A stretch of 64,000 nt of DNA from an uncultured Cytophagales bacterium (GTDB taxonomy: Bacteria > Bacteroidota > Bacteroidia > Cytophagales > Cyclobacteriaceae), in assembly GCA_913057175.1 (NCBI GenBank), contig CAJXNP010000002.1:186001-250000 (forward strand), given 5' to 3'. The notes under the pieces were generated by a model that had not been told where the DNA came from, ran no database searches, and saw only the letters and a list, made by a program, of their open reading frames with translations. Within the stretch, counting starts at the first letter, position 1. The number at the start of each line of letters is the position of its first letter. This document shows positions 18,076-21,223 of the stretch, piece by piece. A program made the translations under genes and the position numbers.

Positions 18076-19077
18076 TTATTGATCTTCCAGGCTGCTGGTT
18101 GAGAGATACCGGTAAAATCCATCAATATATTCTTTCGAATAAAATTTAAATGCTGATTGAAGGGAAAGAGCCAGCTGACTATCACTATATAAATCATATT
18201 TGCAACTTTTCAGCTTTCCGTTTTCATACGAATAATTGATGATCAATTCATTTTTGTTCGAATAGATTATTTTCTTTTGGGAGATCTCCCCATCGGAATT
18301 GTAATGATAAAAGACTTTGGCTTTTAGAATCGAGGATCCATAAAAATTCTTGACAACTAATTCTTTTGGCTTTCCTGCAGAATTATTCCAGATCTTAACT
18401 GTTCTAATTATCTTATTCCCGTTGTATAAAATTCTTTTTAATTTTTGTTCATCTAAATATTTGTACTTCCAGTCCAGTTTTTCATCGAGCAGATGAAAAT
18501 CAGAATATCCGGATAAAAATTCACGGTAAAACTTATTGGATTCATCATGATGAAAATATAGCTGAAATACTTCCCCTGTTGGTTTCATTTCAAGGTTGAG
18601 AAACGGTGTAAAAGCACCATTCTCAACTAAAAAAATATTTTCAAATTCAGGAAGGCTTTCGATATAATCCATGTTCGCCAAAAATTTTACGCCTATCCCA
18701 TGAATGGTATAGACGTCCCGAATGGAATAATATTCTTCTTCCCCATCTACCATTTCCAAAACAAGGTCCAAAAAAGAAATATATTCCTCCGACCATCCTT
18801 CATAGTAAATATCAATTACCGCATCCATTCCAGCTTTTCTGGCAGCATTTATGATGATATTTGCGGCCTTGTCCTTTGAGATCGCTCCCTGACCTTTGGC
18901 CGAAAGTTCTGTGATCTCGATAAACGGAGGCAATTCCGGTTCTTCACCCATGTGAAATGTCATGATGGGTCGATCGTGGTCCTTTCCAGGGATATCATTG
19001 ATCTGAAGATTGTAAAGCTTTGAAGAAGTACAGGAAGATAAAATGAGAATAACAATGGTGTAGTTGACTGCTTTCAT
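18076..19077 (-). CDS. Lipoprotein of unknown function
   Basis: 333 residues. The ATG at 19077 is chosen, ten codons inside the longest frame, because it starts a compact lipoprotein signal MKAVNYTIVILILSSC with Cys16. The N-terminal third contains a segment AANIIINAARKAGMDAVIDI that looks like the small alpha/beta folds often found in lipoproteins. The C-terminal third is rich in Tyr, Lys and short strand patterns (KAKVFYHYNSDGEISQK, KNELIINYSYENGK), similar in style to YD/MORN-like repeat texts. I do not recognise a family. It is 46 bases after the MazG-like gene. Confidence 0.75.
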   Translation of the reverse strand: MKAVNYTIVILILSSCTSSKLYNLQINDIPGKDHDRPIMTFHMGEEPELPPFIEITELSAKGQGAISKDKAANIIINAARKAGMDAVIDIYYEGWSEEYISFLDLVLEMVDGEEEYYSIRDVYTIHGIGVKFLANMDYIESLPEFENIFLVENGAFTPFLNLEMKPTGEVFQLYFHHDESNKFYREFLSGYSDFHLLDEKLDWKYKYLDEQKLKRILYNGNKIIRTVKIWNNSAGKPKELVVKNFYGSSILKAKVFYHYNSDGEISQKKIIYSNKNELIINYSYENGKLKSCKYDLYSDSQLALSLQSAFKFYSKEYIDGFYRYLSTSSLEDQ

Positions 19078-19123
19078 GTCGGTGGTTGTTTGTAAAAATG
19101 AAAGCAAACAAAGTGCCGGAATG

Positions 19124-19450
19124 CTATTTTAATTTCTCATTATTTTGATGACGCTCCTTGTCCCGGTTGGTTTTCTTTTCCAGGTTTTTGATAAATGCAT
19201 CATTCAGATCGACTCCAGTCTGGTTGGCCAGGCAGATCAATACCCAAAGTATATCGGCCATTTCATCTGCGAGGTTTTTCTCTTTGTCACTTTCCTTAAA
19301 GGATTGTTCGCCATATTTTCTGGCAATGATCCGCGCCAACTCCCCGACTTCTTCCGTTAAAATGGCCATATTGGTCAATTCATTAAAGTATCGGACCCCG
19401 TATTTTTTGATCCAGTCATCAACCTGCTTTTGGGCTTCTTCTATTTGCAT
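19124..19450 (-). CDS. MazG-like nucleotide pyrophosphohydrolase
   Basis: 108 residues from the ATG at 19450 (MQIEEAQKQV). The longer open frame to 19519 would overlap the aminotransferase stop and adds text unlike the family. The all-alpha NTP-PPase signature is clear: EEVGELARIIARKYGEQ, then DEMADILWVLICLANQTGVDL, with the EExxE and ExxD metal-binding positions. Such proteins hydrolyse nucleoside triphosphates to monophosphates, usually cleaning non-canonical nucleotides in the cytoplasm. It lies 65 bases after the aminotransferase gene, in the same direction. Confidence 0.9.
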   Translation of the reverse strand: MQIEEAQKQVDDWIKKYGVRYFNELTNMAILTEEVGELARIIARKYGEQSFKESDKEKNLADEMADILWVLICLANQTGVDLNDAFIKNLEKKTNRDKERHQNNEKLK

Positions 19451-19515
19451 AAATCTCTTAGGTATATGAACTATCTTAAAAGTAATTTTAGAGTCATCCT
19501 GAACTTGTTTTAGCA

Positions 19516-20754
19516 TCAAACACTTTGATAAACTTTGTTTTTTGAATTCAAAAATGCAATTGCTTTGGCTATAATCTTTATACCATTTTCAATTTCCTCA
19601 GGTGTAGATTTTGAAAAATTCAATCGGAAAGTATTTTCACGCTTGTTTTCAGTATAAAATACCTCACCAGGCACAAAAACCACACCTGCATCCAAACATA
19701 AATTCATCAGCTTCCAGGATGAAATATGATCGGGCAATTCCCCCCAGAAAAACATTCCTCCGTTAGGAATCCTTACTTTAATATCCTCTGAAAAATGCCT
19801 TTCAATTGCTTTAGCCATAAGATCCCTTCTCTCACGATAACAATTCCTGATGACATTCAAATGTTGTTCGTAGTCATTTGAAATCAGAAATTCATACGCC
19901 ATTTGTTGAGACAGGTTATTGGTATGAAGATCGCTGGACTGTTTGGCTATGACAATCTTCTCCATGATCTCTCGGGAAGCCACGAGCCATCCCAGTCGCA
20001 TGCCAGGAGACAAGGTTTTGGAAAAAGAACCTAATAAAATTCCGTAATCACCAACAATTTTTTTGATGGGATCACGGTTATTTTCTTCTTCAAAAAACAG
20101 TTCTCCGTAGGGATCATCCTCAACTAAAATTGCCTGGTTTTTCTTTGTTAACTCACCTATCTTCTCTCTTTTCAATCGGGAATAACTGATACCGGAGGGA
20201 TTCTGAAAATTCGGAACCAGGTGCATCAATTTTGTGTTTTGATCGACTAATGCCCTTTCTAAATCGGAAAGACTCATTCCATCGTTTTCAAGCGGAACCG
20301 GTACTAAGCTTGGTTCAAAATTCAACAAGGATTGGATCACCCCCAGGTATCCGGGTTGTTCGATCAGCACCCTGTCCCCCTTCTCAATAAAGACCTTTCC
20401 GATCAGGTCAAATGCCTGCTGGGAACCATTCGTGATCAGGATTTCGTCGACAGTAAAATTCATATCAAACTTTTCCCGGTATCGATCGGCGATCCATTGC
20501 CTCAGCGGTAAAAATCCTTCGGAATTGGCATATTGGAATAGCTTATCCCCGTATTTCGAAACAGCATTTTGGAATGCTTTGGAGAGTTGCTCTGTTGGGA
20601 TCAGTTTCTCATCCGGCAGTCCACCTGCAAAGGAAATAACGTCTTTCGAAGCGGCATTTTTCAGCATTTCTCGGATAAATGATCTTGGTATCTGGTTCAT
20701 TCGGTTAGCAAATAGCTGCCCGGGTTTCTGTTCTGGTTTTTCATTTTCATTCAT
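19516..20754 (-). CDS. PLP-dependent class I/II aminotransferase (2-aminoadipate/MocR-like family)
   Basis: 412 residues. The family texts are ISFAGGLPDEKLIP near the start, ILITNGSQQAFDLIGKVF, VPNFQNPSGISYS, the aspartate in EDDPYGELFF, and the PLP lysine in GSFSKTLSPGMRLGW (Lys246). A C-terminal substrate arginine is seen in NTFRLNFSKST. Relatives include LysN/AadAT and the aminotransferase half of MocR regulators; no DNA-binding half is present. It transfers an amino group between an amino acid and 2-oxoglutarate; the substrate is not fixed by sequence. The gene follows a leader with an Ile/Ala/Val-rich short frame and a hairpin terminator (20789-20920), which suggests amino-acid-responsive attenuation and a possible branched-chain role. 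It heads the group with the MazG-like and lipoprotein genes. Confidence 0.92.
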   Translation of the reverse strand: MNENEKPEQKPGQLFANRMNQIPRSFIREMLKNAASKDVISFAGGLPDEKLIPTEQLSKAFQNAVSKYGDKLFQYANSEGFLPLRQWIADRYREKFDMNFTVDEILITNGSQQAFDLIGKVFIEKGDRVLIEQPGYLGVIQSLLNFEPSLVPVPLENDGMSLSDLERALVDQNTKLMHLVPNFQNPSGISYSRLKREKIGELTKKNQAILVEDDPYGELFFEEENNRDPIKKIVGDYGILLGSFSKTLSPGMRLGWLVASREIMEKIVIAKQSSDLHTNNLSQQMAYEFLISNDYEQHLNVIRNCYRERRDLMAKAIERHFSEDIKVRIPNGGMFFWGELPDHISSWKLMNLCLDAGVVFVPGEVFYTENKRENTFRLNFSKSTPEEIENGIKIIAKAIAFLNSKNKVYQSV

Positions 20755-20788: not shown

Positions 20789-20825
20789 AAAAAAAGCCCC
20801 ACTCATCATGGATGAGCGGGGCTTT
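20789..20825 (-). terminator. Intrinsic terminator/attenuator before the aminotransferase gene
   Basis: Arms GCCCCACTCATC (20796-20807) and GATGAGCGGGGC (20811-20822), extended by three A-T pairs, give a 15-bp stem with a three-base loop. On the minus strand the single odd pair is a G-U wobble and the hairpin runs into seven T, so it works in the minus direction; on the plus strand the same pair is an A-C mismatch. It lies after the 23-residue frame and only 34 bases before the aminotransferase ATG. The arm text is repeated inside the leader frame, giving alternative pairings (see findings). Confidence 0.85.
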
Positions 20826-20848
20826 CATTTTGATCGCATTCAACAGAC

Positions 20849-20920
20849 TCATCCAAATTCATCGCCATAAATGGCCACGACTGCCGCGATAATAGCGATA
20901 TGGATGAAATGCTTTTTCAT
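20849..20920 (-). CDS. Putative 23-residue leader peptide or small membrane protein
   Basis: ATG at 20920, stop TGA at 20849-20851. The peptide starts MKKHFIHIAI, continues with a run rich in Ile, Ala and Val, and ends GDEFG. Five of 23 residues are Ile, five Ala, two Val and two His. It precedes a terminator and then the aminotransferase gene. The end of the frame including its stop codon (20847-20855) can pair with the left arm of the terminator, and with codons 5-7 of the frame itself. This suggests a leader peptide whose translation sets the fold of the RNA. The alternative is a small single-span membrane protein with its own terminator. No homologue is known to me. Confidence 0.5.
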   Translation of the reverse strand: MKKHFIHIAIIAAVVAIYGDEFG

Positions 20921-20952: not shown

Positions 20953-20967
20953 AGTCGTCCGACGACT
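20953..20967. promoter_or_regulatory. Palindromic operator-like site, copy 1
   Basis: AGTCGTC-C-GACGACT, a 7-1-7 palindrome that is GC-rich within AT-rich DNA. It lies 33 bases before the ATG of the 23-residue frame. An identical copy lies 32 bases away, centre to centre. Confidence 0.6.
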
Positions 20968-20984
20968 TTTTGATTTTATAAATG

Positions 20985-20999
20985 AGTCGTCCGACGACT
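20985..20999. promoter_or_regulatory. Palindromic operator-like site, copy 2
   Basis: An exact second copy of AGTCGTCCGACGACT. The 32-base spacing is about three helical turns, so two dimers could bind on one face. The 17 bases between the copies include TTTATAAA. The regulator is unknown and no regulator gene lies next to it. Confidence 0.6.
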
Positions 21000-21022
21000 A
21001 CTTCATAAATCTATGTCACAAA

Positions 21023-21051
21023 AAAAAACCGGCTTAGCGGGCCGGTTTTTT
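21023..21051 (-). terminator. Intrinsic terminator after the 24-residue frame
   Basis: Arms AAAAAACCGGC (21023-21033) and GCCGGTTTTTT (21041-21051) form an 11-bp stem with a seven-base loop. Runs of A and T flank it on both sides, so it could stop transcription in either direction. On the minus strand it lies 28 bases past the 24-residue frame and ends in nine T. Confidence 0.85.
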
Positions 21052-21079: not shown

Positions 21080-21154
21080 TCAATACCGATCCCGATTTGC
21101 AACTTGGACAGCTGCAATGAAGAAGGCGACGATATTGATTTGAAACAAATTCAT
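21080..21154 (-). CDS. Putative 24-residue leader peptide or small membrane protein
   Basis: ATG at 21154, stop TGA at 21080-21082. It starts MNLFQINIVA, has a hydrophobic middle, and ends VANRDRY. Its size, hydrophobic core and following terminator parallel the frame at 20849-20920. The last codons (CGGGATCGGT) could pair with ACCGGCCCG of the terminator with one small internal loop, again like an antiterminator. It begins 69 bases after the dtd stop. Evidence for translation is only circumstantial. Confidence 0.35.
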   Translation of the reverse strand: MNLFQINIVAFFIAAVQVANRDRY

Positions 21155-21223
21155 TTCGGAAATATCCTGCTAATATATTTATACATTTTGGATTTTACCA
21201 AATTTGGAAAATTATATTTTGCT

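Follow-up and report, generated by a model that had tools for sequence, protein, structure and literature searches.

Attenuation by translation of a leader peptide is a classical mode of regulation, and the leaders of ilvGMEDA and ilvBN in enterobacteria are single attenuators in front of ilv operons. The best-known cases come from Proteobacteria and Actinobacteria (PMC2965389). In the Bacteroidota it was encountered in the literature in passing only: it has been noted for amino-acid biosynthesis operons of Flavobacterium psychrophilum, in passages of that source that come without an operon list or a tandem design (PMC9723704). In Salmonella, the leader RNA of mgtCBR is described as containing a pair of short ORFs together with attenuator structures; the signals sensed by mgtM and mgtP differ, being ATP and Pro-tRNA, and this arrangement has been contrasted with leaders in which two intrinsic terminators are present (PMC3641672). 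The tandem riboswitches of B. clausii metE, as they are cited there, place two terminators one behind the other in front of a single gene and sense by metabolite binding (PMC3641672).

The locus described here lies in a window of 64,000 nucleotides (the whole stretch of DNA analysed) from an uncultured Cytophagales bacterium and resembles each of these systems in part. With the enterobacterial ilv leaders and with an ilvD leader of the same genome it shares a short peptide with branched-chain codons, an intrinsic terminator and an alternative pairing near the leader stop, but those attenuators are single and precede ilv operons, whereas here there are two, one after the other, their leaders carry Val and Ala codons, and the gene behind them encodes a LysN/MocR-like aminotransferase (AT). 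In contrast to mgtCBR, an intrinsic terminator belongs to each of the two modules, and the amino acids sensed appear to be the same for both; in contrast to metE, sensing would take place by leader-peptide translation. With F. psychrophilum the likeness lies in the phylum and in amino-acid biosynthesis. In the literature searched (most subscription papers and all supplements lay outside this search), nothing was found that describes a pair of equal leader-peptide attenuators arranged serially upstream of an aminotransferase, and the novelty of the arrangement is claimed provisionally.

All features are on the minus strand. The AT gene (19516-20754, ATG at 20754) encodes a class I/II PLP aminotransferase of the LysN/MocR-like type without HTH and is preceded by two leader-peptide/terminator modules, module 1 upstream and module 2 AT-proximal; the gene upstream of both, on the same strand, is dtd. 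A promoter-like site of the Bacteroidota type (21170-21202), in which TTTG (21202-21199) and TATATTAG (21177-21170) are 21 nt apart and 9 of 10 specified bases agree, is followed by the predicted leader peptide 1, MNLFQINIVAFFIAAVQVANRDRY (21080-21154), which comes from the short-frame listing and takes the position of leader 1 as in 15 other loci. Segment 2 of this module, CGGGATCGGT (21085-21094), lies directly 5' of the stop codon, and terminator 1, AAAAAACCGGCCCGCTAAGCCGGTTTTTTTTT, occupies 21020-21051. The gap between the modules, 104 nt in the window, carries two copies of the palindrome AGTCGTCGGACGACT (20985-20999 and 20953-20967). Module 2 begins with the predicted leader peptide 2, MKKHFIHIAIIAAVVAIYGDEFG, of 23 codons (20849-20920, likewise from the short-frame listing), with segment 1, TCATCCAT (20900-20907), and segment 2, TGGATGAGT, over the stop codon (20847-20855). 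Terminator 2 (20789-20826, -26.6 kcal) has the stem GAAAGCCCCGCTCATC/GATGAGTGGGGCTTTT and U7; segment 3, GCTCATCCAT (20808-20817), is the apical half of its 5' arm, segment 4, GATGAGTGGGGC (20807-20796), lies in its 3' arm, and 34 nt separate the terminator from the ATG of AT. The initial annotation had placed this frame, the four segments, the terminator and the AT start codon, all of which are found in the sequence at those coordinates, but it had claimed a single attenuator and missed the module at 21154-21020. Downstream, a gene for a MazG-type pyrophosphohydrolase (19124-19519) overlaps the AT stop by 4 nt (19519-19516), which suggests co-translation, and it is probably co-transcribed with AT; such a neighbour was not seen beside AT homologues in the relatives inspected. 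A 343-aa protein encoded at 18076-19107, also on the minus strand, has no Pfam or NCBIfam match.

The module 2 leader folds far better than dinucleotide shuffles (z -6.05), and none of 200 shuffles was as stable. The pairings 1:2, 2:3 and 3:4 are also present, with two details that differ from the description: hairpin 1:2 is larger, being extended by a second, inner helix AUCGCUAU/AUGGCGAU, and 2:3 covers the apical half of the terminator arm only. As the basal part of terminator 2, AAAGCCCC/GGGGCUUU, thus stays free, antitermination in module 2 can only be kinetic. Taken by itself, the 2:3 duplex is of modest strength (-14.6 kcal; against shuffles p=0.15), but with a ribosome at codon 16 the antiterminator gain is significant, at -11.8 kcal versus -5.0 in shuffled sequences (p=0.015). 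In the ribosome-position folds of the window, terminator 2 is the equilibrium structure wherever the ribosome is placed, and the antiterminator comes out best only as long as the 3' arm is missing from the RNA, with the ribosome stalled no further than codon 18. The concern that the 2:3 pairing covers too little of the terminator to matter is true of module 2, but not of module 1 of the window. There, segment 2 and ACCGGCCCG of terminator 1 form a duplex of -14.0 kcal (p=0.033 against shuffles), and the antiterminator is predicted as the best fold even of the full-length RNA, for stalls at codons 6-9 and 11-16, although in a second folding run with slightly different ends fewer codons gave it; terminator 1 forms for stalls from codon 17 on. 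In these folds the module 2 antiterminator is weak at equilibrium, and module 1 is the thermodynamically clean switch.

No close orthologue of AT was found in the genomes searched, where the homologues are 38-50% identical to the AT of the window, and a contig search with AT gave distant matches only, none of them from Bacteroidota. A DNA search with the leader in its own genome returned only the leader itself, and Rfam gave no family at gathering score for the window region and nine related loci. The arrangement of an ORF and a terminator, repeated and then followed by AT, is nevertheless found at 18 AT loci (counting the window) that represent nine genera. Of these, 16 allowed the scoring of both modules; in the two others (L034, L045) the second ORF alone was scored, and a further terminator lies upstream. 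Where neighbours were listed, the flanking genes on both sides vary by genus, and the double leader thus goes with AT and not with dtd. Relatives that keep the gene without the short frame, which had been named in advance as speaking against attenuation, do exist (L004, L020-L025, L038, L047, L048), but these mostly belong to another clade or have the gene inside an operon or another transcription unit. On the tree, the leader label changes three times, as compared to 10.7 times with shuffled labels, and leader presence thus follows descent, with some loss or gain; L049, the same gene as in L063, counted as leaderless in this tree, as its leaders precede ilvB and were found only later. In the window and ten other loci, all 20 short ORFs that are A/V-rich (at least four Ala/Val in six residues) with a terminator behind precede AT or ilvB-AT and none is located elsewhere, and 25 other short ORFs with a terminator in these loci are not A/V-rich.

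The predicted frames thus found are short and contain candidate regulatory codons. Among the 841 residues of 34 leaders, Val makes up 17.0%, versus 4.2% in the AT proteins (4.1-fold), and Ala 13.1% versus 6.0% (2.2-fold), whereas Ile is not enriched (7.1% versus 8.5%, 0.84-fold) and Leu stands at 11.4% versus 9.9%. Of the stall codons proposed earlier, Ile, His and Ala, only Ala is retained for the family, with Val in place of the others; Ile or His as a family-wide signal is rejected by these counts, while leader 2 of the window itself has more Ile (5) than Val (2). GTC accounts for 48% of the Val codons in leaders and for 9% in AT genes; control codons of attenuators are expected to use particular synonymous codons (PMC1183508). 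Beyond the content in Val and Ala, the peptide sequences are not conserved.

Also the alternative pairing is specific to each module. When segment 2 (the leader end and spacer) was paired with segment 3 (the 5' arm and loop of the terminator), the own pairs averaged -14.1 kcal and pairs with terminators of other genera -10.6 kcal; the own terminator was the better partner in 29 of 34 modules (Wilcoxon p=2e-4 on 17 genus-modules), and for both window modules no terminator of a foreign genus pairs better. Judged by duplex energy alone, just 17 of the 34 modules are better than shuffles (p<=0.05). In most modules segment 2 falls inside the last 20 nt or so up to and including the stop codon, a stretch that a ribosome terminating there would cover. 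With the A site of a ribosome placed on the last Val/Ala codon of the richest six-codon stretch, the antiterminator gains -11.0 kcal, versus -3.9 in shuffled sequences (p=1.5e-5 on genus-modules; p<=0.05 in 27 of 34 modules), and with the ribosome at the stop codon -0.5 kcal, the footprint being a model assumption and loci of one genus being related. Where the complete terminator is the stable form, as in most modules, antitermination must be kinetic. Module 1 of the window gains only -0.1 in this test: the stretch scored there runs to A19, so that its final two regulatory codons, V18 and A19, are already past the switch point, while for stalls at A15 and V16 the antiterminator does form. In silico, the antiterminator is thus freed by a stall and blocked with the ribosome at the stop, in module 2 of the window in nascent RNA only. 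As positive control served the ilvD leader of the host genome, MRLISLLLVSVVVIVDNPC (L050, G000:C2:49237), a classical-looking single attenuator with a segment 2:3 of 10 pairs and without Rfam match, which flips at V11-I14 (VVVI) in the folding test. The comparison with relatives strongly supports the amino-acid attenuation that had been proposed from the window alone.

The number of promoters was judged by consensus match to the pattern TTTG-N17-23-TANNTTTG with 10 specified bases. Over 16 loci the mean score is 8.9 of 10 upstream of leader 1; upstream of leader 2 it is 6.5, about shuffle level. There is thus probably one start followed by two attenuators in series, two complete modules with no promoter between them as judged by this consensus. 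Module 2 adjoins AT and dtd lies upstream on the same strand, and one might therefore suppose that only module 2 attenuates AT, that the terminator at 21051-21020 ends the dtd transcript and that the ORF before it is due to chance. The two-module layout exists, however, also where the upstream gene is not dtd, the promoter-like site precedes leader 1 and not leader 2, most relatives share with the window an A/V-rich leader 1, and it is module 1 of the window that has the cleaner switch, all of which makes this explanation improbable. Still less probable is it that the frames are leftovers and the terminators plain ones, which only insulate AT from upstream transcription while a promoter in or after terminator 2 drives the gene. 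It would agree with this that the module 2 stem is very stable and that nearly all full-length module RNAs prefer the terminator at equilibrium; yet the AT start codon follows terminator 2 of the window after only 34 nt, which leaves hardly any room for another promoter, and the codon enrichment, the specific pairing and the co-location over nine genera would lack an explanation.

The palindromes between the modules could point to yet another kind of control. They are two exact 15-bp palindromes, 32 bp apart, which are not expected by chance in the window and fit TNGTNNNACNA, which we take to be a FadR/GntR-type consensus. A DNA-binding regulator of this type at 20999-20985 and 20967-20953 might thus mainly control AT, but related palindromes occur dispersed over the genome, several of them beside a terminator in a repeated element, and relatives lack them between the modules and in L026 and L046 have other sequence in the gap, so that such an operator is about as doubtful as the insulator. 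The set comprises 11 sites in the genome, and a reversed control pattern gave 0. The relatives mostly have little space there (4-37 nt in 12 of 16 other loci measured), for which reason the palindromes are taken as inserted, and AGTCGTCGGACGACT is probably a copy of a repeat. An interspersed repeat with paired 15-bp palindromes AGTCGTCTGACCACTT..AAGTGGTCGGACGACT was seen at G000 C1:208055, C6:8055, C6:237412, C7:265815, C9:116552 and C15:172572 (locus labels L007, L008, L011, L013, L014 and L028-L031); most copies also have a TTTCATGCCTGTGGGTGAATTC..CTCATTCATGAAAG part, and several stand directly behind an intrinsic terminator, as if inserted there. Other repeat-like sequence fills the gap in L026 and L044-L046, namely a GGATAAC-type tandem repeat in L026 and GC-rich stretches in L045/L046. 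That the leaders are small functional membrane peptides with incidental RNA pairing is hardly credible, although leader 2 with KK and a hydrophobic stretch resembles a small transmembrane peptide, as the peptides are conserved in Val/Ala content only, segment 2 tracks its own terminator, and the synonymous preference for GTC (48% versus 9%) matters for ribosome pausing and not for a peptide.

The enzyme behind the leaders has 412 aa and consists of the aminotransferase domain only (PF00155). Family models place it in class I/II near PdxR/MocR, with valine-pyruvate transaminase further down, all below cut-off, and its solved relatives (1x0m, 3aov, 1wst, 2egy; E 1e-77 to 1e-88) are LysN/multiple-substrate aminotransferases, to which group it belongs by sequence relation. 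Being of class I/II it does not have the profile of IlvE (PF01063, class IV), and as the N-terminal winged-helix domain is absent it is no MocR-type transcription factor. The host genome has a separate ilvE_II homologue (L055), upstream of which no leader was seen. In other genomes, AT homologues are part of ilvD-AT-ilvB-ilvN operons (L072, L076) or ilvB-AT operons (L063, L073), both in another order of the class, and leaders with runs of Val, such as MNRIINIVLVVVVISSIQRKV, precede these operons; in L063 (7864-7570, minus strand) two leaders stand in tandem, each with a run of six Val codons. From this context AT is most likely a branched-chain, valine-forming aminotransferase, and the Ala codons would be in line with an exchange of Val and Ala as in AvtA. 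A branched-chain or alanine link, marked as tentative in the initial annotation, is thus backed by the leader codons and by the ilv operons of relatives.

With two modules, their recurrence, the codon enrichment, the specific alternative pairing, one promoter-like site and the operon context of homologues at hand from sequence comparison, it is very likely that AT is preceded by a tandem ribosome-mediated attenuator fed by one promoter. From the promoter upstream of leader 1 a transcript with both attenuators in series before AT would be made, and in each module a ribosome would translate a short peptide with Val and Ala codons (in the window also Ile). With plentiful charged tRNA it would reach the stop codon and cover segment 2, and the intrinsic terminator that lies between leader and structural gene would form, whereas after a stall on the regulatory codons segment 2, left free, would pair with the terminator's 5' arm and let RNA polymerase continue. 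As the polymerase must pass both modules, the output would approximate the product of two read-through probabilities, with low leak and a steeper response, and as AT most likely forms valine, attenuation would be a feedback by its product. That this is a conserved twin-attenuator design in Bacteroidota, with both attenuators sensing Val/Ala and together gating, in a multiplicative way, an alternative valine/alanine aminotransferase which has moved into and out of ilv operons, appears on balance the better supposition. If true, equal tandem attenuators in nine genera of one order, and once in another, would be a testable case of how a translation-sensed switch is sharpened or tightened. Leader codons and operon context together give a likely substrate, branched-chain and most likely valine, to an aminotransferase that is otherwise called PdxR/MocR-like or generic, and a scan for A/V-rich short ORFs beside a terminator could help to annotate also other genes that are unassigned.
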